A DNA stretch of 64,000 bases from an uncultured SAR324 cluster bacterium (GTDB lineage Bacteria; SAR324; NAC60-12), in contig CAJJCY010000004.1 of NCBI GenBank assembly GCA_905182865.1, positions 62,001 to 126,000 of the forward strand, read 5' to 3'. The position numbers were made by a program, and so were the translations under genes. Shown in pieces: positions 7,304 to 40,051 of this stretch (its first letter is position 1; each line of letters starts with the position of its first letter). The notes below the pieces were generated by a model. The model made no database searches. It was not told the DNA's origin and saw only the letters and a program-made list of their open reading frames with translations.

Positions 7304-8914
7304 ATGAGAATTCGAAGTAATGCAACATCTCTGAATACATTACGGCACTCAGACAACAATTTAAAAAACGTTAGAAGCTCAATTGAAAAATTGAGTTCCG
7401 GAACAAAGATAAACAGTGCCGCTGATGGTCCGGCTTCGCTGATAGCTTCAGAACGATTGAGAGGACAAATTGCGGGATTGAGGCAGGCTTACAGCAACAA
7501 TGAAAATGCTATTGCCATGTTTCAAACTGCCGAGGGGGCCTTGAGTGAGGTCAGCAACATATTGATTCGTTTGAAGCAACTATCAGTTCACGCTGCAAAC
7601 GAAGCAGTTAACGATGATTCAATGTTGGCTGCAGATCAGAATGAAGTGCAAAACTTGCTTAGCACTTTAGATCGAATTGTGAAAACTGCAGAGTTCAACG
7701 GTAGAATATTACTGGATGGTAGCATGGGTGCAAATGGTGCTTCTGTAGGCGATAACATTCGTTTCGTTAATGCTGAAACTTGGACTGAAGCTTCCCCGAT
7801 GGAGGGATATGAAGTTGATATTACACAGGTAGCAACGCAACCACATATAAGAGGCTCTGTACCGTTGACAATACAAAATATAGGTGAAGGAGTTAAAATA
7901 TTGCTCAGTGAAGGTGGCCGCAACGTTGAAGTCGACACAAGGTTTGGGAAAGTTAAAGAAAATATTGAAGAAGTTTTGTCAAACTATAAACAAGATCCTT
8001 CACGCTTTCCCGCAGAGGAGGCTTCGAAAAATATTCGAGCGATTATTATCAATTCAATTAACGAAGCAATTGAAGGAAGTGGTTTAGCTTTGGAGGCCTT
8101 TGAAACACCAGAAAACACATTTTATATCCGACACAAAGATTTTGGTGCTTCCCCTACTTTTTCGCTCACCACTAATATTTCAGGTTTGCTGACAAAAGAG
8201 TCCAATGTTGCTGAATCATCAATACCGGGCTTGGATGTAGCCGGCAAAATTGGTGACAGTTTTACGAATGGGAAAGGACAATTCCTGACTGCAATCAAAC
8301 GTTCTTCTCCTGCACAGGGAATAGCCATACAATATGATCGTTCTATTGGACTCAAAGAAGTGCCTGTCAAAAATGAGCAAGGTGAAGTCGTAGGAACAGA
8401 ATTTGTTGAAGAGACCCAGGAAGAAATCGTGGGTTCTCCAAGTAATCCAATAATAGAAGGCTATGTTCACATATCGCAACAGACAAAGAATGTTGGTCTC
8501 GGAACAAAACCTGGTACGGATCAAGGCTTTTCATTAAAAAACATTCGTACTAGTAACTTGGCACTGGGTGTGGAAAATGAAAGCGGTTTTCGAAGTTTAT
8601 TTGATATCGACTTGACCAGTAAACAAGGTGCTGATAACTCAGGCAGACTTATTGAGAAGGCAATTGACGAAATATCTGTTTTGCGAGGTGAAATTGGTTC
8701 TTTCCAGAAAAACACAGTTGAAAGCAATCTAAATTCGCTCAGAGTTGCAGAAGAAAACATTAGCCGTGGAGAGTCAACCATAAGAGACACGGATATGGCG
8801 GCAGAGATGTCAAAATTAACTGGTAACCAGATTCTTCTGTCGGCCAGTCAATCCATGCAGGCACAAGCAAATCAATTACCACAAAACGTTCTGCAGCTCC
8901 TGCAACAGCAGTAA
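7304..8914 (+). CDS. fliC: Flagellin
   Basis: The 536-residue protein has both conserved flagellin ends. The N-terminal D0/D1 region (residues 1 to about 150) carries the IEKLSSGTKINSAADGPA-type motif and IRLKQLSVHAAN. The C-terminal helix region (last about 90 residues) carries DTDMAAEMSKLTGNQIL and ends NQLPQNVLQLLQQQ. The middle, about residues 160-420, is the variable surface domain. A GGGAGA ribosome-binding site sits just before the ATG. It is the only flagellar gene in the window, so hook, export and cap genes are elsewhere. The product assembles into the external filament. Confidence 0.95.
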   Translation: MRIRSNATSLNTLRHSDNNLKNVRSSIEKLSSGTKINSAADGPASLIASERLRGQIAGLRQAYSNNENAIAMFQTAEGALSEVSNILIRLKQLSVHAANEAVNDDSMLAADQNEVQNLLSTLDRIVKTAEFNGRILLDGSMGANGASVGDNIRFVNAETWTEASPMEGYEVDITQVATQPHIRGSVPLTIQNIGEGVKILLSEGGRNVEVDTRFGKVKENIEEVLSNYKQDPSRFPAEEASKNIRAIIINSINEAIEGSGLALEAFETPENTFYIRHKDFGASPTFSLTTNISGLLTKESNVAESSIPGLDVAGKIGDSFTNGKGQFLTAIKRSSPAQGIAIQYDRSIGLKEVPVKNEQGEVVGTEFVEETQEEIVGSPSNPIIEGYVHISQQTKNVGLGTKPGTDQGFSLKNIRTSNLALGVENESGFRSLFDIDLTSKQGADNSGRLIEKAIDEISVLRGEIGSFQKNTVESNLNSLRVAEENISRGESTIRDTDMAAEMSKLTGNQILLSASQSMQAQANQLPQNVLQLLQQQ

Positions 8915-16143: not shown

Positions 16144-16332
16144 CACATTAAGCTATTGATTTATATAATTTATTTATGTTAGGAAAATACTCTCTACGTC
16201 GGGGCTTAGGGCTCTATTCAATATAATCTTGTGTTTCACACAGTATATAAGGAGAATGTGTTTTTATTTTCAAAATCAAATAAAGATTCTACACGTTGAA
16301 ATTTATAATTTCATAGAGAAAAGGAGTTGCCT

Positions 16333-17823
16333 ATGCCGGTTAGTACATCAGAAACACCAAAATCAATTGGAATGAAAGATGCCGCTTTGTTCCGTCAGCA
16401 AGTCTACATAAACGGTAAATGGTTGGATGCTGACAGCGGGGAAACTACCGTAATCACTAATCCTTCCACCGGTGAAGTTTTAGGTACTGTCCCTAACTGC
16501 GGAGCAGCGGAAGCAAAACGTGCGATTGAGGCGGCAAATGCGGCCTGGCCAAAATGGCGTTCCAAAACAGCAAAAGAGCGAGCTGTGATAATGCGCCGAT
16601 GGTATGAGTTGATGATGGAAAATCAGGAGGATCTCGCCCGTTTGATGACAGCAGAACAAGGGAAACCGTTGACTGAATCACGTGGTGAAATTTCTTATGC
16701 GGCTAGTTTTATTGAATGGTTTGGCGAAGAGGGTAAGCGCTTATATGGTGATACAATTCCCGCACATGCTACAGATAAACGGATTGTCGTTATCAAACAG
16801 CCGATTGGAGTTACTGTGGCCATTACACCATGGAATTTTCCGGCTGCTATGATTACACGAAAGGCTGCACCAGCATTAGCTGCTGGATGTCCAATGGTCA
16901 TTAAACCTGCTCCAGACACTCCCTTTTCTGCATTCGCTCTTTGTGAACTTGCCGAAAGAGCAGGAGTTCCTGCAGGTATTTTGAGCACAATTACAGGAGA
17001 TGCGATTGGAATTGGAAGTGAATTTACGGGAAATCCTATTGTGCGTAAATTGACTTTTACTGGTTCAACAGGAGTTGGTAAGCTTTTGATGAAACAGTGT
17101 TCAGGAACAGTGAAAAAGCTTGCGCTCGAACTTGGTGGAAATGCTCCATTTATCGTTTTTGACGATGCGGATCTTGAAGCGGCAGTGGCAGGGGCAATGG
17201 CTAGTAAATTCCGCAATGCAGGTCAAACCTGTGTCTGTGCAAACCGAATTATGGTGCAAAGTAAAGTCTATGATAAATTCACGAAAATATTCGCTGATGC
17301 AGCCAAACGTCTAAAAGTTGCAGATGGTTTTGAAGAGAGTTCGGATCTAGGACCGCTGATCAACGAAGCGGCTGTTAAAAAAATTGAAAGCCATGTTAAG
17401 GACGCTGTGTCCAAAGGCGCCAAATTACTGACAGGAGGTCAACGTCACAAACTTGGTGGCACTTTTTACGAGCCGACCGTACTCTCTGGAGTTACTACAG
17501 ATATGCTGGTAGCCAAAGAGGAAACATTTGGGCCAATGGCACCTGTTTTTAAGTTTGAAACGGAAAAAGAGGCCTTGGAGATGGCTAATGATACCGAATT
17601 CGGTTTAGCCGCCTATTTTTATAGCCGGGATATCGGCACAATATGGAGAGTCGCAGAGGGTCTCGAATATGGAATCGTCGGTATAAATGAAGGCATTATT
17701 TCTACTGAAGCAGCTCCTTTCGGAGGAGTGAAAGAATCCGGAACAGGACGCGAAGGTTCTAAATATGGTATTGAAGACTACCTGGAATTAAAGTACCTTT
17801 GCATGGGCGGAATTAATGATTAA
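16333..17823 (+). CDS. gabD: NAD(P)-dependent aldehyde dehydrogenase, succinate-semialdehyde type
   Basis: A 496-residue aldehyde dehydrogenase with catalytic Cys300 (GQTCVC), general-base Glu266 (LELGG) and the NAD-binding GSTGVGK. The closest family by sequence pattern (ADTIPAHATDKRI-like segment, ITPWNFPAAMITRK) is GabD, which oxidises succinate semialdehyde to succinate; glutarate semialdehyde is an alternative substrate. The ATG at 16333 has a good AAGGAG site 6 bases upstream and is preferred over the TTG at 16327. It is followed by the MoaD-like gene and the aldehyde:ferredoxin oxidoreductase on the same strand, so it is probably the first gene of an aldehyde-oxidation operon. Confidence 0.85.
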   Translation: MPVSTSETPKSIGMKDAALFRQQVYINGKWLDADSGETTVITNPSTGEVLGTVPNCGAAEAKRAIEAANAAWPKWRSKTAKERAVIMRRWYELMMENQEDLARLMTAEQGKPLTESRGEISYAASFIEWFGEEGKRLYGDTIPAHATDKRIVVIKQPIGVTVAITPWNFPAAMITRKAAPALAAGCPMVIKPAPDTPFSAFALCELAERAGVPAGILSTITGDAIGIGSEFTGNPIVRKLTFTGSTGVGKLLMKQCSGTVKKLALELGGNAPFIVFDDADLEAAVAGAMASKFRNAGQTCVCANRIMVQSKVYDKFTKIFADAAKRLKVADGFEESSDLGPLINEAAVKKIESHVKDAVSKGAKLLTGGQRHKLGGTFYEPTVLSGVTTDMLVAKEETFGPMAPVFKFETEKEALEMANDTEFGLAAYFYSRDIGTIWRVAEGLEYGIVGINEGIISTEAAPFGGVKESGTGREGSKYGIEDYLELKYLCMGGIND

Positions 17824-17872
17824 AGCCTAACATGTGGGCAGCAAAATCAATCTGTTTTAGTGAAATTATATT

Positions 17873-18106
17873 GTGAAAATTAATATTGAGTTAATGGGTT
17901 CATTGGAGGATTACCTTCCAGACTCAGAACGGGGTCAGTCAGTTTTGAATCTCAAAGATGAGTCTACAATTGCTGATTTGTTGAGCCATCTTAAAATAAA
18001 GCGAAGGGTCATTGTTGCAGTAAATGGAGATGAGGAAAAGGGATCGGAATATGTTCTATCTGAAGGCGACGAGGTACTTGTCTTTACTGTAATCAGTGGT
18101 GGGTAG
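17873..18106 (+). CDS. MoaD/ThiS-family sulfur-carrier protein
   Basis: A 77-residue ubiquitin-like protein starting at GTG 17873 (MKINIELMGSLEDYL) and ending in the diagnostic Gly-Gly (VISGG). MoaD-like proteins are thiocarboxylated at the C-terminal glycine and donate sulfur to the dithiolene of molybdopterin. Placement directly before an aldehyde:ferredoxin oxidoreductase gene is a known pattern for tungstopterin enzymes, so a role in cofactor supply for that enzyme is likely. No MoaE partner is seen. A ThiS role in thiamine synthesis is possible but not supported by neighbours. Confidence 0.8.
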   Translation: MKINIELMGSLEDYLPDSERGQSVLNLKDESTIADLLSHLKIKRRVIVAVNGDEEKGSEYVLSEGDEVLVFTVISGG

Positions 18107-18146
18107 AGCTTAATTTAGAATTACTAAAATCTATAGGAGAAAATTT

Positions 18147-20087
18147 ATGTCTTACGGCTACACTGGAAAAATACTGCATGTCAACTTAACGACTAGTGAA
18201 ATTACAGTTGAAGAACCAAATGAACAGTTTTATCGGACTTACATGGGAGGGAGTGCTATGGGAATGCACTACGTCCTCAAAGAAACTCCTGCCGGAGTCG
18301 ATCCCTTAAGCCCTGACAATGTTCTGGCTTTGTGCACGGGTGTTGTAACAGGAACGCCGATTTCCGGACAGAGCCGTTTAACTTCAGTGGCAAAATCTCC
18401 GCTCACAGGCTGTATAGGAGATGCACAGGGTGGAGGATATTTTCCAGCTGAAATGAAGTTTTCTGGATTTGATGCAGTAATCATCAAGGGAAAATCTCCA
18501 AAACCGGTTTATTTGTGGATGCATCACGGTGAAGCAGAATTGAAAGATGCCGGCCATTTGTGGGGACTTACCACTGGTGATGCTGAAGATAAACTTAAAG
18601 AGGAGCTGGAGGATAAGCGTATCGAAGTTCTTCAAATTGGGCCTGCAGGTGAAAATTTAGTGCGTTTTGCTGCACTTATCAGCATGAGCAATCGAGCTAA
18701 TGGTCGTACAGGAATGGGCGCCGTTATGGGTTCAAAAAATCTGAAAGCTGTAGTTGTTCGAGGTAAACAGAAACCTACTATTGCTGATCCGGAAAGATTT
18801 AAGGCATTACAAAAATTGGGTAAAACCCTTCTTGAGCCAACGGGTATGGACGATTTTGGAAAGTATGGAACCCCTGACGTGACTAGCCCTCAAAATAAAT
18901 CTGGAGGCTTGCCAACTTATAATTTCAACAGTGGAACTTTTGATAAACATGAAGAGATAAATGGAAGGACACTTTATAATGAACACCTTCGAGGTCATGA
19001 AAAAGATGAGCAGAATCGGTTTGGAAGAGATACATGTTTCAGTTGTCAAATTAAATGTAAACGAGTTTCTCAAATTGATGAAGGCCCATATAAAACAGAT
19101 GCAAAATACGGTGGTCCTGAATACGAAACGCTTGCCACCTTTGGTAGTTATTGCGGTATTAGTAATATGGATGCAATAATTCATGCAAATGCACTGTGCA
19201 ACATGTACGGAATGGATACTATCTCCTGTGGAGCTACAATTTCCTGGGCTATGGAATGCTGGGCAGAAGGAAAATTAACTTCAGAAGATACAGGAGGAAT
19301 TGAACTGAATTATGGAAGTGCAGAAGCCATGGTTAAAATGACAGAAATGATCGCTAAGCGCGAAGGCTTTGGTAAAATACTGGCTGAGGGTTCACAGAAA
19401 GCCTCAGAAATTATTGGACGTGGAACTGAAGAATATTTAATTACGAGCAAAGGGCAGGAAGCTCCTGCGCATATGCCTCAAGTAAAACGAAGCCTGAGCG
19501 TCATTTATGCTACTAATCCATTTGGTGCGGACCATGAGTCAAGTGAGCATGATCCTGCCTACAAGGCTTATCCGGAACGTATGGAACAGATCGGTCTGAC
19601 AAATCCTCAGGAGAAATTAGCACTGAATGAAGAAATGATGCGCTTTGCAATGGTTACTCAGCACTTAAGCAGTGCCATTGACAGTCTCTCTGTTTGCGCT
19701 TTTATATTTGGTGCTTCTTTTCAACTTTATGATTCCAATCAATTAGTTGAGGTAGTTAACGCAGTTACAGGTTGGGATACAGATATCACAGAAATATTAG
19801 CAGTCGGTGAACGTCGTCTCAATATGCTGCGGGCTTTTAATTCACGAGAAGGAATAGGTCGTGAATCAGACACACTGCCTAAAAAGATGTTCAAACGTCC
19901 ACTTGAAGGCGGCAGGTCAGATGGTTATGCCTTAGACGAAAAAGAGTGGGAAGCGGCTCTGGAAGATTATTATCGGTTGTGCGATTGGGATACAAAGACA
20001 GGCCATCCTTCACTAAAAAAGATGGAATCACTGGGTCTGGGCTGGGTTGTTGCTGAGAATGAAGCTCTTTCTCAAGTTGTTACCTGA
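18147..20087 (+). CDS. aor: Aldehyde:ferredoxin oxidoreductase, tungsten-pterin family
   Basis: A 646-residue member of the AOR family, which oxidises aldehydes to carboxylic acids with ferredoxin, or reverses the reaction, at a tungsten bis-pterin centre. The N-terminal domain starts YTGKILHVNLTTSEI and includes the conserved TPISGQSRL and SPLTGCIGDAQGG segments. The [4Fe-4S] ligands are C297-x2-C300-x3-C304 with the distal Cys517. Length matches the family. A GGAG ribosome-binding site precedes the ATG. It lies 40 bases after the MoaD-like gene and 35 before a sigma-54 activator. The natural substrate cannot be read from the sequence. The gene is intact in a region where many others are broken. 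Confidence 0.93.
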   Translation: MSYGYTGKILHVNLTTSEITVEEPNEQFYRTYMGGSAMGMHYVLKETPAGVDPLSPDNVLALCTGVVTGTPISGQSRLTSVAKSPLTGCIGDAQGGGYFPAEMKFSGFDAVIIKGKSPKPVYLWMHHGEAELKDAGHLWGLTTGDAEDKLKEELEDKRIEVLQIGPAGENLVRFAALISMSNRANGRTGMGAVMGSKNLKAVVVRGKQKPTIADPERFKALQKLGKTLLEPTGMDDFGKYGTPDVTSPQNKSGGLPTYNFNSGTFDKHEEINGRTLYNEHLRGHEKDEQNRFGRDTCFSCQIKCKRVSQIDEGPYKTDAKYGGPEYETLATFGSYCGISNMDAIIHANALCNMYGMDTISCGATISWAMECWAEGKLTSEDTGGIELNYGSAEAMVKMTEMIAKREGFGKILAEGSQKASEIIGRGTEEYLITSKGQEAPAHMPQVKRSLSVIYATNPFGADHESSEHDPAYKAYPERMEQIGLTNPQEKLALNEEMMRFAMVTQHLSSAIDSLSVCAFIFGASFQLYDSNQLVEVVNAVTGWDTDITEILAVGERRLNMLRAFNSREGIGRESDTLPKKMFKRPLEGGRSDGYALDEKEWEAALEDYYRLCDWDTKTGHPSLKKMESLGLGWVVAENEALSQVVT

Positions 20088-20122
20088 GACTATAAAACAG
20101 CTGGAAAAATAAAAAAAAGACG

Positions 20123-21202
20123 GTGGAGTTTGTGTCGAATCAAAGAAGGAGGCCACTAACAGAAAAGGAATCAGTACAGGATAATTTTTGGAATCAGGAT
20201 GTACTGAGAGAAATTCACACCAGAAGCCCTCGAATGCTTCAGACCTTTGAAAAGGTCAAGTCTGTGGCACCCACTAAAACTACGGTGCTGCTTTTGGGGG
20301 ATACCGGAGTCGGTAAAGGCATGGTGGCAAAACTGATTCACCAGCACAGCAGTCGCAAAGATGAAGAATTTGTCCATGTACATTGCGGTGCATTGCCTGA
20401 CACGCTGGTTGAAAGTGAGTTGTTCGGTTATGAAAAAGGCGCCTTTACCGGTGCAGCAAAACGTAAACTGGGGCGTTTTGATAAAGCTCAGAAAGGGACC
20501 ATTTTCCTGGATGATGTTAATACAATTTCCGAAACCATGCAGATAAAACTGCTGCAGGTTTTGCAGGAACGTATTTTTCAGCGTGTAGGAGGAGAATCAC
20601 CAATTGAAGCAGATGTTCGTGTGATAGCTGCTTCAAATTCAGACTTGCAGCAACTTTGTCATGAGGGCCTTTTCCGCAAGGATCTTTATTATCGCCTCAG
20701 TGTATTCCCTCTTGAAATTCCTTCACTTCAGCAACGTTCCGAAGACATTCCGGATTGGATTGATTATCTGATTGACTGGTTCAATAAACTTTATTTTAAA
20801 GAAATACAGAGTGCAGATCCTGTTGTGGTAAAGGCTCTTCAGGAATATTCATGGCCGGGAAATATTCGAGAATTGGAAAATATAATTGAACGTGCTTATA
20901 TTCTTGAAACGTCTTCAGTGCTCAGACCGGAAAATTTTCCGCAGGAGTTTTTCACAGACACAAACAACACTGAAGAAGTTGAATTGGATATTGCCCTTAC
21001 TCTTGCTGAAGTTCGTCGTAAAAGTCTGGATTACCTTGAACGGCAGTATCTCATTAAAGTGATGACTAAACATCAGGGACGCATCAATCGGGCTTCAGAA
21101 ACTGCGGGCATTACAACCCGGCAGCTTCACAAACTTCTCAGTAAATATGGAATCCGCAAAGAAGAGTACAAGTCTGCTAATTCTGCTATTATAAAAGCTT
21201 GA
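20123..21202 (+). CDS. Sigma-54-dependent transcriptional activator lacking a sensor domain
   Basis: A 359-residue AAA+ activator with Walker A GDTGVGKG at residues 59-66, the sigma-54 contact loop GAFTGA at 106-111, Walker B GTIFLDDV, and a C-terminal Fis-type helix-turn-helix (RINRASETAGITTRQLHKLL). Only about 40 residues precede the AAA+ domain, so there is no response-receiver, GAF or PAS sensor, as in PspF. Starts at GTG 20123; GTG 20132 is an alternative. It follows aor by 35 bases and is probably the operon's regulator, but I found no convincing -24/-12 sigma-54 promoter upstream of the aldehyde dehydrogenase gene, so its target is unproven. Confidence 0.9.
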   Translation: MEFVSNQRRRPLTEKESVQDNFWNQDVLREIHTRSPRMLQTFEKVKSVAPTKTTVLLLGDTGVGKGMVAKLIHQHSSRKDEEFVHVHCGALPDTLVESELFGYEKGAFTGAAKRKLGRFDKAQKGTIFLDDVNTISETMQIKLLQVLQERIFQRVGGESPIEADVRVIAASNSDLQQLCHEGLFRKDLYYRLSVFPLEIPSLQQRSEDIPDWIDYLIDWFNKLYFKEIQSADPVVVKALQEYSWPGNIRELENIIERAYILETSSVLRPENFPQEFFTDTNNTEEVELDIALTLAEVRRKSLDYLERQYLIKVMTKHQGRINRASETAGITTRQLHKLLSKYGIRKEEYKSANSAIIKA

Positions 21203-21325: not shown

Positions 21326-22843
21326 TTAGTCGGTGAAACGTTCAGTAAGTTTGAGGCGTTGAATTTTACCAGAAGGTCCTTTGGGGAGTTCGTCGAGAAA
21401 AAAGTACTTAGAAGGCGCACGGTATGCTCCCATCGCATCCAAACACAATTGTCTTAGATCTGATTCAGTTACTTCCTCACCTGGTCGAGTAGCAATTGCA
21501 GCGGCAACTGTTTGTCCGTAATCCGCATCCGGAAGCGCAAAAGCTGCTGCCTGATGGTGGGATCGGAAAGTGTATTTTCTATTTCTATTGATGATATATT
21601 TTCACCACCTTTAATAATAAGTTCCTTGAGGCGACCGGTGATAAAAATATAGCCATCAGCATCCATCTTGCCAAGATCTCCAGTACGATACCAATCGTCT
21701 GGGGTGAATGCTTCTCTGGTGGCTTGAGAATTTTTGAAATATCCCTGCATTACATTCCGGCCTTTTACTTGAATCTCGTTTTCTTCACCTGTACAAACGA
21801 CTTTTCCTTCAGCGTCCGCAATTCTCACTTCATTCCCGTAGGCAATTCCAGAAGAGCCATGTTTGTGCTTTGTTGGATCAAGTGGGTTTGAAAGCAGTGG
21901 AGCAGCTGTTTCCGTGATTCCCATTGTTTCAACAATGCTTAGTCCAAACCGACTTTCAAAGGCTTTGTGCAGTGCAGGAGGCAGTGCAGCCGAGGCCGAA
22001 CGTCCGAAACGAAAATGACCAAGTTTTGATATTAATTTTTCGTCTTTTTCCGCATTCATTAAATAAGAAAGAATCGTTGGAACGACGCTGAACCAAGTGC
22101 ATTTTTCATCAACAATCCATGACCAAAATTTTGAGGCTTGAAAGCGATCAGGTATGACCAGTCCGGAACCGCTGACCAGCGATCCCATCACAGAAACAAC
22201 TTGGGCGTTTATGTGACAGAGTGGTAACACACATAAAGTCCTGTCTTCCAATGTTAATTGATGGGCAATTTCTGTATTCCAACCTCCATAAAGCAGACTT
22301 TCGTGTGTGTGAATTACTCCCTTAGGCCGTCCTGTAGTTCCGGAAGTATAAATTAACAGGGCTGCATCTTGCGGACATGGTTTTGGAGTTGATAATTTTT
22401 CGTCACAAACTTTCCAATCTGGCCCATTTTCAGGATGAACTGGAATCAGCTGAGGTTTGTCAGAAAGTTGAGAAAGCGCTTTCTGAGCTAATTCATGATG
22501 TTGTTGATCAACAAAAAGTTTTTTAGATTCAGAATGCTCCAGAACAAATGCCAGAATATTGGCTCCGGACAACGGATTCGCCAGCAGAACCTTATATCCT
22601 CCGTACATTCCACCCAAAAATAATTCCAGGGCAGCCTGACCGTTTCCGAGCAAACCTGCAACTGGCTACATTCGGAGGAAAATCCATGTTCTTTAGATAC
22701 CGTGCAATCGATTGCACTCTTGCTTGAAATTCGCTCCATGTGTGACTGATTCCGGATTCAGGATATTTCACAAATAGACGATCTGGAGAAGTTTCAGCGT
22801 GCTGATCAATCAAACTGCGAATCGTGTGGCCTGCGGGATTCAT
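21326..22843 (-). CDS. AMP-forming acyl-CoA synthetase, frameshifted twice
   Basis: Restored, this is a member of the ANL superfamily of about 505 residues: start MNPAGHTIRSLIDQHAE, P-loop YTSGTTGRPKGV, the YRTGDLG motif, GRLKELIIKGGENIS, and the C-terminal PSGKIQRLKL with the catalytic lysine. It activates a carboxylic acid with ATP and CoA. The frame breaks near 22660 (after MDFPPNVA, resuming VAGLLGNGQAAL) and near 21560 (after SDPTI, resuming QAAAFALPDADYG). It lies 47 bases downstream of the CoA-acylating aldehyde dehydrogenase, so the pair could reduce an acid to an aldehyde through the acyl-CoA. The order matches sauS-sauT of sulfoacetate degradation, but the substrate is not provable here. 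Confidence 0.8.
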
Positions 22844-22890
22844 TCTTTCAATAGATTTGGATTTTTTTATTAAGCATTATCATTTTTAAT

Positions 22891-24302
22891 TTAACGTCCG
22901 TGTTTGTTCCAATACTCTCCGAAAATTTCTTTTTCACTTGGTTCAACAGGTGGAATTGGGTGAACAATACGGACAATGTTCAGGTAATGTCGATAGTTGA
23001 GATTTTCACTTATGGAATTACCGCCCCATGTACCGCAGCCCATTGAGAGCGAAAACGGCAATCCGTTATCGAAACTGCCTCCGGTGGCAAAACAATGTGC
23101 CTGGTTCACAATCACACGGCAAGCAGGAAGATTCAATCCTATTTGCAAAGGCCTTGATTCGTCTGTTGAGTGTAGTCCCACTGAATGCCCCTTGCCCTGA
23201 AAATCATAAATTTCCCGGACTTGTTCACATGCAGTTTCAAAATTTGAGGCACGATACACGGTTAACACCGGGCACAGTTTTTCGCCGGAAAAAGGGAATT
23301 CGAACCCCGTTCCGGTCTCTTCGACCATTAGCATTTTGACATTATTCATTTCTGAACGTTGAAGTCCAATTGCTTCCGCAATTTCTGGAGCCGACTTTGC
23401 GATTAAATCCTGATTGAGTCTGCCCTGAATCCACAAAGTGTTTTGCAGATTTTGTGTTTCTTCCAGACTCAGAAGAGTACCGCCCTCGGTTTCCAGAGCT
23501 GCTATTGCTTTGTCATAGACATCCTCTACAATCACCACGCTGTTTTCAGAAGAACAACTGGTAGCGTTGTCAAATGTTTTGGAAGCAGTTATTTTTCTTG
23601 CGGCAGAAACTAGATTTGCTGTTTCATCTATGATTGATGAAACATTGCCTGCACCAACTCCAATCGCGGGTGTACCGCTGCGGTAGGATGCGCGGACATT
23701 GTTTTGTGAACCTGTAACCACCACAAGATCAACCAATTGCATTAATTCATGAGTCGCTTCTTTGCTGACCGGTGCAGGGAGTTTCTGGATGAGGTTTTCC
23801 GGATGCCCCAAACTGCGTAAAACATCTTGCAGCAAATCCACAACTCGTTGACAAACATCGTCACCCTTTGGGCGACGGCGAGACGTACAATTGCATTGCG
23901 GCACTTTGATAGCGCATTTATAGAGTGTTGTTTAGCGGGGTGGCCCTGGGGTTGGTTGAGGGCAGCAACTGCGCCCATCGACCCCGATCGGGACGTGCTA
24001 TTTCGGTACCATAGCCTCGTTCGGGTTTCGTCACGAATGACACCAGGAAGGTCGGCGCATGTTTCAATATCGCGCATTAGTCCCAGCGTCTTGCGGTGAT
24101 TCTTGATTATTTTGTCATCTACATTTCCAAGTCCAGTATCTCGAACAGCCTGTTCCGCAAGTGAGCGGTTCGTTTTCGGCTCAAGAATTGCCCAAGCCAA
24201 TCCTGTGATTAATTCGTCAACAGTAATTTGGCTGGCCGTTTCAATTTCAGCTTGTGCCGTTTGTGCTTTACCAACAACAGTTTCAACAGAGGTTAGAGTC
24301 AT
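22891..24302 (-). CDS. CoA-acylating aldehyde dehydrogenase, several frameshifts
   Basis: The part from 22891 to about 23870 is intact and has the acylating-family motifs SKTFDNATSCSSENSVV (catalytic cysteine) and TPAIGVGAGN. The N-terminal part from 24302 (MTLTSVETVVGKAQTAQ) is also recognisable. Between about 23870 and 24005 the similarity hops through all three frames (TEIARP, TNPRATPLNNTL, NALSKCRNAIV, PKGDDVCQRVVDL), so at least three small indels occur within about 130 bases. The family interconverts acyl-CoA and aldehyde with NAD(P)H. Candidates are succinate semialdehyde, acetaldehyde or sulfoacetaldehyde (SauS). A CoA ligase gene follows. Confidence 0.8.
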
Positions 24303-24586
24303 TTTATGCTTTCGAGGTAGCCTAGGATAACTTAGCTTGCAGAGAAGCGACAGTAGAAATTTAAAATTATATGTTCGAGATTGTTGAGAAATTCCTCAAG
24401 TTAAACTTTGGTGCTACGTCCAGAATTTTTTCAACAAAACTTTAGGAAACAAATTCAACTGTGAGTCTCAGGAGCACTTATAACTTTTGCACTTTGTTAA
24501 TCGAATATATCTTAAATTCAACTAGTTGATCTCATTTATCAAGTTAATTATAAATTAAGTTAATCTCTTGTCCTAATGTTTTTTCC

Positions 24587-24644
24587 TTGACATTAATTTA
24601 AATTGTGATATTTATGTGGTTGAAATTATCACATAGTGTGATAA
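24587..24644 (+). promoter_or_regulatory. Promoter and palindromic operator of the tctCBA operon
   Basis: A perfect -35 box TTGACA lies at 24587-24592 with a weak AT-rich -10 region near 24609-24615. Just after the expected transcription start is a perfect dyad TTATCACA-TAG-TGTGATAA at 24626-24644. Such a position suits a repressor, and the TTAT...ATAA ends resemble GntR-type operators, but the regulator is not identified. The rest of the 24303-24681 gap is AT-rich and must also hold the promoter of the divergent aldehyde dehydrogenase gene. Confidence 0.55.
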
Positions 24645-24681
24645 TGGTTATAATTATTTATGATATTCTATGGAGTTTCAG

Positions 24682-25720
24682 ATGAATAAACTTAAATTGA
24701 AAAAACTGGTTAAATTTGGTTTTGCAGCATTAACAGGTATATTTGTAGCGGGTGCGGGTGTTGCGGTTGCATTTGAATGCAAGGTCAAGAACAGCAGTAT
24801 GGCTAAACCATCAGGTTTCCCCAGTCGTGCATTAACCATGATTGTCCCTTATGGACCTGCTGGGGGTTCAGGACAGGTGGCATCAGCAATGGCTGAGGGA
24901 GTTACTGGTCATTCTGGTGTTAACATTAACCGAGACCATAAACCAGGTGGATCAGGTACTGTTGGAATGACAGCTTATATGTCTGCTCCAGCGGACGGAT
25001 ATACGGTCCTTGAACATATTGATGATGCTTCATCTGCTCATGCATTGGATTCGAGTAGGCCAAACCCCTCTGTAGATTTGGTACCACTTGTTATCTCCCA
25101 AGTGACATTTCTCACAGATTTATATCCGTACCAATGAAACTCGTTTTAGTGACTGGTCCTCATTTGTAAAATTTGTCAAAGGTAAAAATGGTAAGTCAAC
25201 CATCGCCAATGTTTCCAAGGAAGGTTCTATGGAGCGGGTAACGATGAAATTCATCACCGAAAGTGCGGGTATGAAAATTCAACAGATTTCCTTTGATAAG
25301 GGTGCGCCCCGTTACGGTGCACTTCTAGGAGGACAGGTTGATGCTCTGTTCGAGCAACCCGGTGATGTCAGGAAGTTCCTTGACGCAGATAAATTCAAGC
25401 CAATCCTGACCATTTTTAACGAACGACCATCCGTTTTTGGTGATGTTCCTACTCATAAAGAAATGGGCATGAATTTTGAGCCACTATTACGCTTTCGAGG
25501 GTTTTACGTGCATGCAAATACACCATATAATCGAGTCCAATGGCTCCAATGGGCATTCCAACGTGGATATTGTCAGGATAGTTACCAAAAATTCAATGAT
25601 TCAAAATTCATGAATGTTATAGATAGTTATCGAGACACTGCAGGTGGCAGGGATTTGATTAATGCCTCGATTATTCAATATAGAAATGTTTATAAAGAGA
25701 TGGGACTTAATGTTAAATAA
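24682..25720 (+). CDS. tctC: Tripartite tricarboxylate transporter substrate-binding protein (TctC/Bug), frameshifted
   Basis: Periplasmic binding protein with a signal peptide (basic start, hydrophobic run LTGIFVAGAGVAVA) followed by the TctC/Bug signature FPSRALTMIVPYGPAGGS and the KPGGSGTVGM region. The frame breaks near 25108, after VISQVTF, and resumes as SQIYIRTNETRFSDW to the end. I prefer the ATG at 24682 over 24670 because a GGAG site at 24672-24675 overlaps the first ATG. First gene of the tctC-tctB-tctA-MFS operon. Bug proteins bind diverse small carboxylates, so the ligand is open. Confidence 0.85.
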
Positions 25721-25849
25721 TTTATCCCAATTTATTTAAATCTCTAAAACATCATCCCAAATCGTGTCCGGTGTTTTCAACCGGACACTAATCGGAACAA
25801 TAATCCAAATTAATTTTCTAAAGACAAACCATAAGGTTGAAACCTTGAT

Positions 25850-26371
25850 TTGGTTAAAAATCATCAAAAACATTTTGTTTTTTCATTTGAGTTTAATCAG
25901 GAAATTGAAATATATAAATTTGGAGCCACAGGTTGGCCCAGAGTAATTTTAGGCCTTCTTTTACTGGTAACGTTGGGTAATTTTCTCCATCTTTACAAAA
26001 AAGGTTCAGAAGCCCAGCAAGGAAGGGTTGGCATTTCTGATATTGAAGAGGAAATTACATATGATGGTATTGGTTCAATCAAGAAGTTGTTAGCAATACT
26101 GTCTCTGCCGCTCATATTTTCATGGTCGCTAAAACCAGTAGGATTCTATTCGGCGACACCTGTTTTCATCGCTCTCACAATTATGCTATTAGGTGAAAAA
26201 CGGATAAAATGGATTTTAGGAATTACATTATTCATATATTTAGTTCTGATATTATTGTTTATGGTAATCCTCAATGCTCCACTCCCTCAGGGTAATGTAT
26301 CCCCATTCTATGATTTTAGTGCGTTCATGTTGACTCTAAATACCAAACTACACCAATCACTTAATTTTTAA
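25850..26371 (+). CDS. tctB: Tripartite tricarboxylate transporter small membrane subunit TctB
   Basis: A 173-residue small membrane protein with about four hydrophobic segments in TctB arrangement, located between the binding protein and the large TctA permease. The only start in the open frame is TTG at 25850; just before it is a dyad AAGGTT-GA-AACCTT (25833-25846), whose AAGG could act as a distant ribosome-binding site. An indel at the N-terminus cannot be ruled out. It ends 7 bases before tctA. Confidence 0.75.
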   Translation: MVKNHQKHFVFSFEFNQEIEIYKFGATGWPRVILGLLLLVTLGNFLHLYKKGSEAQQGRVGISDIEEEITYDGIGSIKKLLAILSLPLIFSWSLKPVGFYSATPVFIALTIMLLGEKRIKWILGITLFIYLVLILLFMVILNAPLPQGNVSPFYDFSAFMLTLNTKLHQSLNF

Positions 26372-26378
26372 TTTACAG

Positions 26379-27851
26379 ATGGTTGATAATTTTCTTGCTG
26401 GTAGTGCAGCTCTTTTTGGAGATCCTTTCACTATTGGAATATTTATCTTTGGTGTTATAGGTGGAATGCTGTTTGGTGCCATTCCCGGGGTTAGTATGTT
26501 AACTCTTGCAGCTATATTGTTGCCATTCACAGCTAGTCTTGAGCCAGCTCAAGGCGTGATGCTATTTGCAGTAATATATTGTACAGGCACTTACGGTGGA
26601 GCTATTACGGCAATACTGTTTAATATACCAGGTGCTCCTGAAAATGCTCCAACTGCATTCGACGGGTATCCTATGACCCGCAAAGGTCAATCTGGAAAAG
26701 CAGTTGGAGCAGCAGTTTTGTGTTCTGCAATCGGTGGTGTCTCATCTGCGTTGATAATGATGGCGGCAACAGAACCTTTGGCGAACTGGGCAATCTCCAA
26801 TATAGGGCCTCCAGAAATATTTGCATTGGTATTTTTTAATCCGCTACTAATTGTATTGAGTATGTTTGCAGGTATAATTGGGGGCTTACTGGCTGGTACA
26901 CTGTTTTTAAATAACTATAGATTTGTTGCTACAAGTGGACAGTCTATAGGTGTAAATTATCTTGCTGCTGGCATAGCATTTGTTCCTGCTATTATGGGTT
27001 TTTTTGCAGTTTCTGAAATTTTCGTTCAAGCAGAAAAAAAAGCAGTTGGCATGTATAAAGCCCCAAAACTTAGTCTTGATTTCCCTACTATTTTAGAACT
27101 ATGGTCTCATAAAATTGCTGTGTTAAGATCCATGCTGGTTGGTTTTTTCTGCGGAATTCTTCCTGGAATCGGTGCAACCCTTGCGGCATTTATGGGCTAT
27201 GGTGAGGCAGTACGCTGGTCTAAAAATAAAGATTCATTTGGAAAGGGCAATATAGAAGGGGTGATATCTTCCGAAACTGCTAATAATGCTGCTACTGGAG
27301 CCGCAATGATCCCGTTGCTGGCACTCGGACTTCCAGGCGGTGCTATGACAGCATTAATGGTAGGGGTCTTTCAGATGCACGACCTGGAACCAGGTCCAAT
27401 GGTTTTTTATAATTCACCTGATTTGATATGGATTGTTTTTGCTGCAATGTTTTATGCAAATTTATCAATTCTATTCATAGGTTTAATAGAAACTAAGACG
27501 ATTTTACATCTACTAAAAATACCTTTTCAATTTTTGGCACCGATGATTTTGCTGCTGGCAAGTATTGGCTCATATATTGGACGCGGTCTGGTGCTTGATG
27601 TAATGATAATGTTTTGTACTGGAATAATGGGTTTTTTGCTAAGACGCTCAGGTTATTCTATCCCTGGAATTGTGTTAGGTATTATTCTTGGTAAAATCGG
27701 TGAACAAAATTTTGCACAAGGAATGCAGATGGTCCATTATGATGTGCTGGAATATTTATCGCGTCCAATCTGCCTGTTATTGATAATTGCCGGATTTTTG
27801 ACATTATTTACAGGTATATACAAAGCGTTGTCATATTCATTCAAGTCCTAA
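26379..27851 (+). CDS. tctA: Tripartite tricarboxylate transporter large permease TctA
   Basis: A 490-residue permease with about 11-12 membrane segments and the conserved TctA (DUF112) motifs: GAIPGVSMLTLAAILLPFT near the N-terminus, GTYGGAITAILFNIPGAPE, and GILPGIGATLAAFMGYGEA in the middle repeat. It is the cation-coupled transport subunit. Intact, with tctB 7 bases upstream and the MFS gene 15 bases downstream. Confidence 0.93.
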   Translation: MVDNFLAGSAALFGDPFTIGIFIFGVIGGMLFGAIPGVSMLTLAAILLPFTASLEPAQGVMLFAVIYCTGTYGGAITAILFNIPGAPENAPTAFDGYPMTRKGQSGKAVGAAVLCSAIGGVSSALIMMAATEPLANWAISNIGPPEIFALVFFNPLLIVLSMFAGIIGGLLAGTLFLNNYRFVATSGQSIGVNYLAAGIAFVPAIMGFFAVSEIFVQAEKKAVGMYKAPKLSLDFPTILELWSHKIAVLRSMLVGFFCGILPGIGATLAAFMGYGEAVRWSKNKDSFGKGNIEGVISSETANNAATGAAMIPLLALGLPGGAMTALMVGVFQMHDLEPGPMVFYNSPDLIWIVFAAMFYANLSILFIGLIETKTILHLLKIPFQFLAPMILLLASIGSYIGRGLVLDVMIMFCTGIMGFLLRRSGYSIPGIVLGIILGKIGEQNFAQGMQMVHYDVLEYLSRPICLLLIIAGFLTLFTGIYKALSYSFKS

Positions 27852-27866
27852 AATGTTGTCCAAAAC

Positions 27867-29093
27867 ATGACAACCAAGCCATTACTTCAAGAGAAACCCT
27901 CGATACGGATCATTTTCTGGATTTGCATTGCAGAAATCCTTACAATGCAGGGAGTCTTTACGTTTTCATCCATGCTTCCTTTTTTTTTAGCAGAATGGAA
28001 GTTGGACAGTATTGACGCTGGCTGGATCAGCGGGATATACTATGGATCATACATGATATCTGTCATGATTTTGGTCAGCCTTACCGATTGGATTGATGCG
28101 AAAAAAATATACATCACCGGTGCTTTGATTACTCTTATCAGTTGCATAGGATTCGCATTGTTTGTTGAGGGTTACTGGAGCGCAATGTTATTCAGAGCCC
28201 TGGGAGGAATAGGTCTGGCAGGAACTTACATGCCCGGGCTGAAAGCTCTGACAGACCGTCTCTCGGGTACATCTAGGGTTCGTGCCACATCTTTTTATAC
28301 CTCCTCATTTGGTATCGGGAGTGCACTTTCATTTCTGATTGGAGGCTCCATTCTCAAATGGTTCTCCTGGCAAATTGCTTTCTGGATTGCCGGCTTATGT
28401 GCTTTGCTGGCACTGCTGATTGTATCTAAAGTATTGGAAAATCGTCCAAACCGAGTTGGGTTTCGTTCCGGTCTTCGTTCACTGGACTTCAGGCCTGTAT
28501 TAAGAAACTCAAATGTAATGGGTTGGATCGCCTGCTATACAACTCATAATTATGAACTGTTTGCATTCCGATCATGGATTGTTGTTTACCTGACATTTGC
28601 TTTGACTGGTGTAACTGGTGGTTTTTTTCAACCTTCAAACATAATTTTCTTTGGGGTGCTTCTTGGAATGCCGTCCAGCGTCATCGGCAATGAACTAGCA
28701 ATGCGTTATGGCAGAATACGAGTTGTAGTAAGTATCATGTGTCTCTCAGCAGTTTTAGCCATTATGGTTGGAAACAGTATTGGTCTTTCAGCACCTTTGT
28801 TGATAGCACTTGTCCTTGTTTATGGATGTTTTGTTACAGGAGATTCTGCTTCAATCACCACTGGTGCAATTGAAAGTGCTTCTGAGGAAAATCGTGGAGT
28901 TACAATGGCCGTCCATTCAAGCATAGGCTTCATTGGTTCTTTCCTGGGGCCTATTGGTTTTGGATTAGTCCTCAATACTTTTGGAGGTCATAACAGCTCC
29001 GAGGCATGGTTTTGGGCATTTGCGTCAACAGGATTTGTTCTACTGTTAGGCCCCATCCTGTTATTAATTCTCAGGACCGTTAAAAAGACTTAA
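27867..29093 (+). CDS. Major facilitator superfamily transporter
   Basis: A 408-residue protein with about 12 membrane helices and MFS features: a D-W-I-D-A-K loop after helix 2, RALGGIGLAGTYMPGL in helix 4, and a long central loop near residues 185-215. It lies 15 bases downstream of tctA and is probably cotranscribed. Substrate unknown. An MFS carrier (SauU) accompanies SauS and SauT in sulfoacetate users, but this similarity of context is not evidence of substrate. Confidence 0.85.
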   Translation: MTTKPLLQEKPSIRIIFWICIAEILTMQGVFTFSSMLPFFLAEWKLDSIDAGWISGIYYGSYMISVMILVSLTDWIDAKKIYITGALITLISCIGFALFVEGYWSAMLFRALGGIGLAGTYMPGLKALTDRLSGTSRVRATSFYTSSFGIGSALSFLIGGSILKWFSWQIAFWIAGLCALLALLIVSKVLENRPNRVGFRSGLRSLDFRPVLRNSNVMGWIACYTTHNYELFAFRSWIVVYLTFALTGVTGGFFQPSNIIFFGVLLGMPSSVIGNELAMRYGRIRVVVSIMCLSAVLAIMVGNSIGLSAPLLIALVLVYGCFVTGDSASITTGAIESASEENRGVTMAVHSSIGFIGSFLGPIGFGLVLNTFGGHNSSEAWFWAFASTGFVLLLGPILLLILRTVKKT

Positions 29094-29164
29094 TTATTTC
29101 TGGTGGATATGATGCCCATCCAAAGTGAAGTTGAAGAAATAATCTAAATTATAGAGAAAAATCA

Positions 29165-29240
29165 ATGTCTCATTCAATTCTTGTTTATGAACATGGTGCC
29201 CCAGAGGTCATGAGGTGGGAAGAAATTTCACCTCAGCATC
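29165..29240 (+). pseudogene. 5' remnant of a zinc-type quinone oxidoreductase gene
   Basis: The first about 23 codons (MSHSILVYEHGAPEVMRWEE) match the N-terminus of NADPH:quinone oxidoreductases of the medium-chain dehydrogenase family. The similarity then stops and the frame runs into unrelated sequence until a stop at 29350. The rest of the 29094-29464 gap holds no gene I recognise. A truncated gene next to the sucD fragment suggests a deletion or insertion junction. Confidence 0.55.
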
Positions 29241-29464
29241 CTGGAAACGGATGCGGCAAATGCTCACCGTGCTTTGCAAAGTCGCAAAACAACTGGATCT
29301 ACAATTTTGGAAATTTAGATATAAATAAAATAAAACATAGGGTAATATAATTTAAAATAGTAGTAAGAATATCCGCAGTTCCTATCTGATTTCTTGCTTC
29401 ATAGAATGGGCTCGTCTATAATGGTATACAAAACGTATTTTTCTCCAAATTGATTCAAAATATC

Positions 29465-30335
29465 ATGTCAGTTCTTATCGATAATAATACTAAGTTACTT
29501 GTTCAGGGAATCACTGGTTCACAAGGTATGCTTCATACTCGAGGCTGCAGAGATTACGGAACTAACGTAGTATCTGGAGTAACTCCAGGTAAAGGTGGAC
29601 AAAATCATTTAGATCGCCCTGTATTCAATACAGTTGCTGATGCTGTTAAAGTAGAAGCTAATACGTCAATAATATTTGTGCCAGCTGGTTTTGCTGCGGA
29701 TGCAATCATGGAAGCTGCTGATGCAGGTTCAAATCCATTATAGTTGCCATTACTGAGGGTAGTTCCAGTTTCGGACATGGTGAGTGCAGTTTCTTTTGTA
29801 AACCAAAAAGGATCCCGTTTGATTGGTCCGAATTGTCCGGGTATTATAACTCCGGGACAAATTAAAATAGGAATTATGCCTGGATCGATTCATAAAACTG
29901 GGCCTGTGGGTGTAGTTTCTCGTTCCGGAACGCTTACCTATGAAGCAGTTGGACAACTCTCTCGTGTTGGTTTGGGCCAATCGACTTGTATTGGTATTGG
30001 TGGAGATCCTGTGAATGGAACAAATTTCATTGACTGTCTCAAACTTTTTCAAGAAGATCCGCAAACTGAAGCAATCATTATGATTGGAGAAATTGGCGGA
30101 AATGCTGAGCAACAATATCAAATATGCAAAAGATAATGTTTCAGATGAAGAAATAGTGGTAGCAGGAGAAACTGCACCAAAAGGCAGAACAATGGGACAT
30201 GCCGGTGCCATTATTTCAGGTGGACATGGTACGGCTGCTGAAAAAATGAATGCTTTGGAGGCGGCAGGCATCCACGTAGTGAAAACTCCTGCAGAAATTG
30301 GGGAAAAGATGCTGGAAGTTTTGGGACTAGACTGA
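29465..30335 (+). CDS. sucD: Succinyl-CoA ligase alpha subunit (SucD-like), several frameshifts, no sucC
   Basis: The restored protein matches the alpha subunit of ADP-forming acyl-CoA ligases: start [18 protein letters not shown], the segment [39 protein letters not shown] and the phosphohistidine region [11 protein letters not shown]. Similarity crosses frames near 29740 and 29770 (IVAITEG lies in another frame) and again near 30110, where GEIGGNAE joins a shortened segment leading to [17 protein letters not shown]. The beta subunit normally encoded just upstream is absent, replaced by the oxidoreductase remnant. The gene may be dead, or may be a partner of a ligase encoded elsewhere. Confidence 0.75.
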
Positions 30336-39037: not shown

Positions 39038-40051
39038 ATGGAATTTAGTTTTGAAGCCCTAATATTTATTGCAGTTGTATTTCTCTTAGCAGCCTTTATT
39101 CATGGGAGTATCGGATTTGGATTTCCTATGGTGGCAACACCTTTGTTGGCACTTTTCACCGATATTCAAACTGCAATTGTACTGACATTAATTCCAACGT
39201 TACTGGTAAATCTAATAAGTATTATAAGTGAAGGGAACATATTAGTTGCTGCACGTCGTCACTTTTTGCTGGCTTTATTTGCAATGTTGGGAAGTGCTGT
39301 AGGAACGCAAATACTTCTAGCCGTGAACTCAGAAATTTTCAAGGGATTGCTTGGAGTCGTAATTATAATTTATTTGTTCTCTGAAAAGATAAAGTTAAAA
39401 TTTTCATGGATTAGAGAACAGCCGAAATTCTCAAAGTGTACATTTGGACTATCAGCAGGAATTTTAGGAGGCCTTACAAATGTTATGGCTCCTGTACTTA
39501 TTATTTATTCTCTGGAGTCAAAGTTTTCTAAGAGTGAGACAGTTCAAGCATCAAATTTATGTTTTTTATTAGGAAAAATTATCCAGATATTTTTATTTTT
39601 CATCAATGATAAATTTTCTCTAAATGAGTTTTCAACTTTTTCTACGATACTGTTAGTTACCTCATTTGCCCTGTATGGAGGCATTGCAGTAAGGAATAAA
39701 ATCAAGGGTAAAGCTTATAAAAAAATTCTTAGATTGTTATTGTTTATATTAGCAATAATATTATTAGGAATCCAAGTTGTCATTATAATGGTATGTAAAA
39801 TAATTCTTTTAGTAATGCTGCTATTGCAATGGTTACTTCCAATTTCATCTAGAGTAATATGTCTCTGCCTAGTTCCTGTGTTCAGAGACATCATCACAAA
39901 ATTCCTCCTATTTTTATTGATTTATTTTAATTTGTGTCAGTTATATTCCCCTCCACCAGCCCGGAAGGGTGGATCCCTTTTAAAAACGGGTATTTTCGAT
40001 CTGAAGAACTATGAGCTGGAAATTCAACTAAATCTTACTCAAGACGACTAG
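39038..40051 (+). CDS. TauE/SafE family sulfite exporter-like permease with unusual C-terminal extension
   Basis: The first about 250 residues have the TauE/SafE pattern: two four-helix repeats with HGSIGFGFPMVATPLLAL in the first and GLSAGILGGLTNVMAPVLI in the second. Such permeases move sulfite, sulfoacetate or other organic anions. Family members usually end soon after the LLGIQVV helix; here the frame runs on for about 85 residues through two hydrophobic stretches and a segment YSPPPARKGGSLLKTG that does not look like protein. A lost stop codon or indel near 39790 is likely. It ends 6 bases before the aminotransferase-fold gene. Confidence 0.75.
   Translation: MEFSFEALIFIAVVFLLAAFIHGSIGFGFPMVATPLLALFTDIQTAIVLTLIPTLLVNLISIISEGNILVAARRHFLLALFAMLGSAVGTQILLAVNSEIFKGLLGVVIIIYLFSEKIKLKFSWIREQPKFSKCTFGLSAGILGGLTNVMAPVLIIYSLESKFSKSETVQASNLCFLLGKIIQIFLFFINDKFSLNEFSTFSTILLVTSFALYGGIAVRNKIKGKAYKKILRLLLFILAIILLGIQVVIIMVCKIILLVMLLLQWLLPISSRVICLCLVPVFRDIITKFLLFLLIYFNLCQLYSPPPARKGGSLLKTGIFDLKNYELEIQLNLTQDD

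Follow-up and report, generated by a model that had tools for sequence, protein, structure and literature searches.

A probable SauST-TTT module for sulfoacetate uptake and activation in a SAR324 bacterium

Sulfoacetate is very probably taken up and activated in an uncultured SAR324 cluster bacterium by the products of a small gene module, which is predicted from gene families and their arrangement to feed the sulfoacetaldehyde-consuming enzyme Xsc. The module lies in the window analysed here, a stretch of 64,000 nucleotides from a five-contig, 3.2-Mb genome assembly whose named close relatives are the SAR324 cluster MAGs NORP237 and REDSEA-S27_B3. A sequence-only reading of the window had proposed a sulfoacetate-type module that imports, activates and reduces an organic acid, and this proved largely right, as judged by a SauS family match, ligase relatives encoded next to sauS and an xsc gene in the genome. 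The minus strand carries sauT (21326..22843), coding for an AMP-forming CoA ligase that is probably a sulfoacetate-CoA ligase, and sauS (22891..24302), coding for a CoA-acylating dehydrogenase of the sulfoacetaldehyde family. Across a divergent intergenic sequence (24303..24669), the plus strand encodes a tripartite tricarboxylate transporter (TTT) with the substrate-binding protein TctC (24670..25720), the small membrane subunit TctB (25850..26371; an open reading frame syntenic with relatives) and the large membrane permease subunit TctA (26379..27851; 490 residues, intact), followed by an intact MFS carrier of 408 residues (27867..29093). All of the genes named in the sequence-only reading were found where it had placed them and on the same strands, but the frame splits in the ligase, dehydrogenase and tctC genes had gone unreported. 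Relatives within the genus keep the order GabD-type dehydrogenase, AOR and sigma-54 regulator, then sauT and sauS, then tctCBA and the MFS gene, then sucD. Since the arrangement is retained in SAR324 relatives despite about 20-25% DNA divergence, it is not a product of chance.

The dehydrogenase belongs to the SauS family. The NCBIfam equivalog model for the acylating sulfoacetaldehyde dehydrogenase SauS, NF047625, has a curated cut-off of 600; the window copy is matched in two frame pieces with 515.2 and 114.9 bits, neither of which alone exceeds 600, while the intact orthologues of ten relatives score 697-748 bits, all over the cut-off. SauS is the sole equivalog matched well by the window protein, and the next-best model, AdhE, reaches 257 bits. 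The sequence-only reading would have been undone by a placement outside the SauS group; in the tree, the window protein groups within two clades that each have 100/99 support, a SauST clade of 15 rows and a SauS clade of 18 rows, the latter including proteins from Caballeronia (encoded by sauS-sauT-MFS), Paracoccus, Ruegeria and Sulfitobacter, with E. coli AdhE separate. Here the Caballeronia sauS-sauT-MFS locus served as a proxy, the SauS of C. necator itself not being among the rows. The catalytic cysteine is present, with the Cys of ATSCSSENS aligning with the ICASEQ cysteine of E. coli AdhE. Hence, we infer that the protein would act on sulfoacetaldehyde and CoA.

The neighbouring ligase gene retains the motifs YTSGTTGRPKG, WYRTGDLG and PSGKIQR, and its product aligns over residues 1-509 with the 514-residue orthologue of the genus relative G016 at 72-73% identity, interrupted by two single-base shifts. 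The NCBIfam matches included no SauT model. When the intact G016 ligase was compared with plasmid proteins, 11 of its best 12 matches (38-47% identity) adjoined a SauS match in the same record, and beyond these SauS-adjacent ligases the identities fell to about 32%. Nearly all of the best relatives are thus ligases encoded next to sauS, and the window protein is probably the sulfoacetate-CoA ligase SauT. The ADP-forming SauC-SauD pair of the sauSCD type is absent from the cluster; the nearby sucD was considered as part of a SauCD enzyme and ruled out, as the genome has no second gene for succinyl-CoA synthetase alpha, and its only sucD and sucC are housekeeping genes.

The sequence-only reading had noted that no xsc gene was visible, which is true inside the window, but the source genome carries one at C4:212437-214167, separated from the window end by about 86 kb, whose product matches the Xsc model with 907.9 bits (cut-off 676). 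A search of the genome for a sulfoacetaldehyde-consuming enzyme, proposed in the same reading, was therefore successful. The gene is followed by genes for a class-III aminotransferase, resembling taurine-pyruvate aminotransferase, and for an alanine dehydrogenase, which we take to be the Tpa-Ald-Xsc arrangement of taurine dissimilation. In the window's genus xsc is not adjacent to sauST. Two sister-genus genomes (G019 and G025; L052, L053) carry xsc-tpa-ald-sauS-sauT as one contiguous cluster, a single locus in a gammaproteobacterial MAG (L055) brings together TctA, sauS-sauT and xsc, and plasmid loci of Paracoccus, Azospirillum, Rhodococcus, Ruegeria and Sulfitobacter combine SauS with xsc or a TTT. 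Across the family, the two genes co-occur significantly, with both sauS and xsc present in 10 genomes, sauS only in 2, xsc only in 5 and neither in 14 (P = 0.003, kinship ignored); within the genus, where genomes are incomplete, the presence of the two genes showed no association. A distant genome (G074; L095) holds xsc together with a SauS relative, a sauC/sauD-like ligase pair and TctA, corresponding to a sauSCD type with xsc.

We hypothesize that TctCBA imports sulfoacetate, which SauT would couple to CoA while cleaving ATP to AMP, as suggested by its family and neighbours, and that SauS would then reduce sulfoacetyl-CoA to sulfoacetaldehyde. Xsc, assigned by family membership, is predicted to convert sulfoacetaldehyde and phosphate into sulfite and acetyl phosphate, and the latter may be turned into acetyl-CoA by a Pta-family enzyme; the genome has a single gene of this family, which at 292 bits lies just under the cut-off of 311. 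Taurine and sulfoacetate would converge on one Xsc, since xsc sits in the taurine cluster and the predicted SauS product is sulfoacetaldehyde. The sulfite is probably exported or processed by another enzyme. Its oxidation by AprA or a sulfite-oxidase-family molybdoenzyme was considered and set aside, as searches of the source genome found neither gene. Besides the failure to find these two, the points against a sulfoacetate module are that sauS, sauT and tctC have broken reading frames in the window, that xsc does not stand beside sauST in the genus, that the presence of sauS and xsc is not associated among the incomplete genomes of the genus, and that TctA is not specially close to the TctA proteins of other sau loci.

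The window tctC is 85% identical to the intact 358-residue TctC of G016, with one +1 shift, and TctA is 82.8% identical to its G016 counterpart, 31-35% identical to TctA proteins beside other sau loci and up to 41% identical to its best plasmid matches. From the C-terminal half of tctC through tctB and tctA (25200-27750), the window shares about 97-98% DNA identity with NORP237 over most of the stretch, compared with 75-85% in the flanks, and the NORP237 contig ends at this high-identity stretch. The transporter genes may have recombined recently between species, or the MAG contig may be chimeric. The extent of the module is indicated by the relative G004 (L119), which has lost sauT, sauS, tctC, tctB and most of tctA but keeps the AOR block and the MFS gene on the flanks; at a deletion scar at 7350-7655 of this locus, 75 tctA residues remain ahead of the MFS gene. 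Because this joint loss spares the flanks, we take the unit to be sauTS-tctCBA, with the MFS and AOR genes as neighbours.

The MFS carrier, likened in the sequence-only reading to SauU, is probably not a dedicated part of the module, and its identification as SauU is ruled out by an identity of only about 23% to the MFS protein in the SauU position of Paracoccus and by its retention in G004; a comparison with the Caballeronia protein in the SauU position gave no significant match. The TauE-family gene that the same reading had pointed to near 39 kb is present (39038-40051, plus strand), but it is not syntenic with the module and is a distant paralogue of a different TauE that adjoins sauS in some relatives, so a role as the exporter of the module is unsupported. 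In G007, G008, G015 and G016, this other TauE gene lies directly upstream of sauS in the order TauE-sauS-sauT; at the sauS/tctC intergenic site it is present in L045, L046, L050 and L051 and absent from L043, L049 and the window. On the other flank (16327-21202), a conserved block encodes a succinate-semialdehyde-type dehydrogenase, an aldehyde ferredoxin oxidoreductase and a sigma-54 regulator. These are unlikely to be module parts, because G004 keeps all three independently of sauST-tctCBA and because a search between sauS and tctC found no sigma-54 type promoter (-24/-12 site). Beyond the MFS gene, the window has a 61-residue remnant (29165-29350) that resembles the start of a 322-residue gene at the same place in L047, judged by eye to be quinone-oxidoreductase-like; L043 has a different, 409-residue membrane-carrier-like gene at the equivalent site.

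The reading frames of the window copy are broken at several places. Called against the G016 proteins, single-base shifts number four in sauS (at about 24026, 23919, 23882 and 23869), two in sauT (at about 22663 and 21566, dividing it into a start ORF at 22592-22843, a middle piece at 21469-22653 and a tail at 21326-21448), one in tctC (at about 25111) and three in sucD. It is possible, though we consider it rather unlikely, that in this strain the block is decaying into pseudogenes while its relatives keep a working one, a state of the window copy that leaves the function of the family untouched and is compatible with sulfoacetate use in the relatives. The seven shifts in sauS, sauT and tctC would fit such decay, as would the deletion of the block in G004 and the somewhat greater divergence of the N-terminal part of SauS, where the window copy is 69% identical to both G003 and NORP237, compared with 81% between these two. 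Breaks are also denser at 21500-30150, with about 10 in 9 kb compared with about 20 in the surrounding 95 kb (Poisson P about 3e-5 for the module and sucD against the surroundings). However, shifts occur across 104 kb and affect about 21 of the 63 genes compared there, some of these being doubtful calls at alignment ends, and the genome's only sucD (29450-30335) and only sucC (G000:C4:851216-852386), which lie far apart, are both frame-broken, while sauS and sauT, where they align well, keep a dN/dS of 0.08-0.14. Because so many genes are broken, the only sucD and sucC are broken too, and dN/dS is low, assembly indels are the most likely origin of the breaks in sauS, sauT and tctC, likelier than gene death. 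The rpoB gene of the source genome is intact.

Alternatively, the substrate of the pair could be a different short acid, for instance succinate, oxalate or malonate, which would be activated and reduced to the corresponding semialdehyde, the pair working with the SSADH-like dehydrogenase encoded at 16327-17823. This GabD-type enzyme is indeed close by, and the solved structures nearest in sequence are an acylating succinate-semialdehyde dehydrogenase for SauS and oxalate-CoA ligases for SauT. Yet the SauS equivalog score far exceeds those of the AdhE, EutE and acetylating-dehydrogenase models, the dehydrogenase groups within the SauS clade, the neighbourhood with xsc recurs in other taxa, and the GabD-AOR-regulator block remains where sauST has been lost in G004, which together make another acid improbable. 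Least credible of all is a module running in reverse, in which taurine-derived sulfoacetaldehyde is oxidised to sulfoacetate and excreted: SqwD and SqwKL do work in the sulfoacetate-forming direction in sulfoquinovose fermenters (PMC12890257) and the taurine genes of the genome could supply the sulfoacetaldehyde, but the ligase is AMP-forming and not of the ADP-forming type used for ATP gain, it diverges from a TTT, an importer family, and Xsc is present to consume sulfoacetaldehyde.

Uptake and activation of sulfoacetate thus remains the preferred function of the module, favoured also by the joint loss in G004, by the TauE-sauS-sauT order of some relatives and by the low dN/dS of sauS and sauT where these align well. 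We lean towards the broader proposal that SAR324 bacteria draw carbon and energy from sulfoacetate by way of TctCBA-SauST and the same Xsc as for taurine, with sulfoacetate serving as a currency of oceanic dissolved organic sulfur. For this abundant, uncultured water-column lineage, the proposal supplies a specific and testable organosulfur substrate. The main SAR324 metapangenome paper describes taurine (TauD) and alkanesulfonate (SsuD) use and no sulfoacetate, and our literature search for SAR324 together with sulfoacetate, incomplete in coverage so that earlier reports may exist, found no report.

The SauST-TTT kind of module is already known, and SAR324 is a new host group for it. Clusters of SauST with a tripartite tricarboxylate transporter have been described in sponge symbionts and called the hybrid type (PMC12625764). 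As in these, the AMP-forming SauT of SAR324 adjoins SauS and a TTT takes the place of SauU, whereas the SAR324 transporter genes are divergent from sauST and xsc is far off in a taurine cluster; the layout is hence not confined to sponge symbionts. The sauSTU locus of Cupriavidus necator H16 (Weinitschke 2010, cited in PMC12625764) likewise has sauS followed by sauT, and the chemistry predicted to lead to Xsc is the same, while the SAR324 locus differs from it in having no SauU-like MFS carrier and no adjacent IclR-type regulator that could be seen. Bilophila wadsworthia also combines SauS with a TTT importer, in its sauSCD and SauXYZ system (PMC12625764, PMC12890257), but there the ligase is the ADP-forming SauCD instead of an AMP-forming SauT, and the end enzyme is isethionate lyase instead of the Xsc predicted for SAR324. 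In the plasmid loci of Ruegeria sp. THAF33 and Sulfitobacter alexandrii, sauS-sauT likewise stand directly beside tctABC or tctCBA; unlike the divergent SAR324 module, however, these alphaproteobacterial loci are same-strand operons with a LacI-type regulator.
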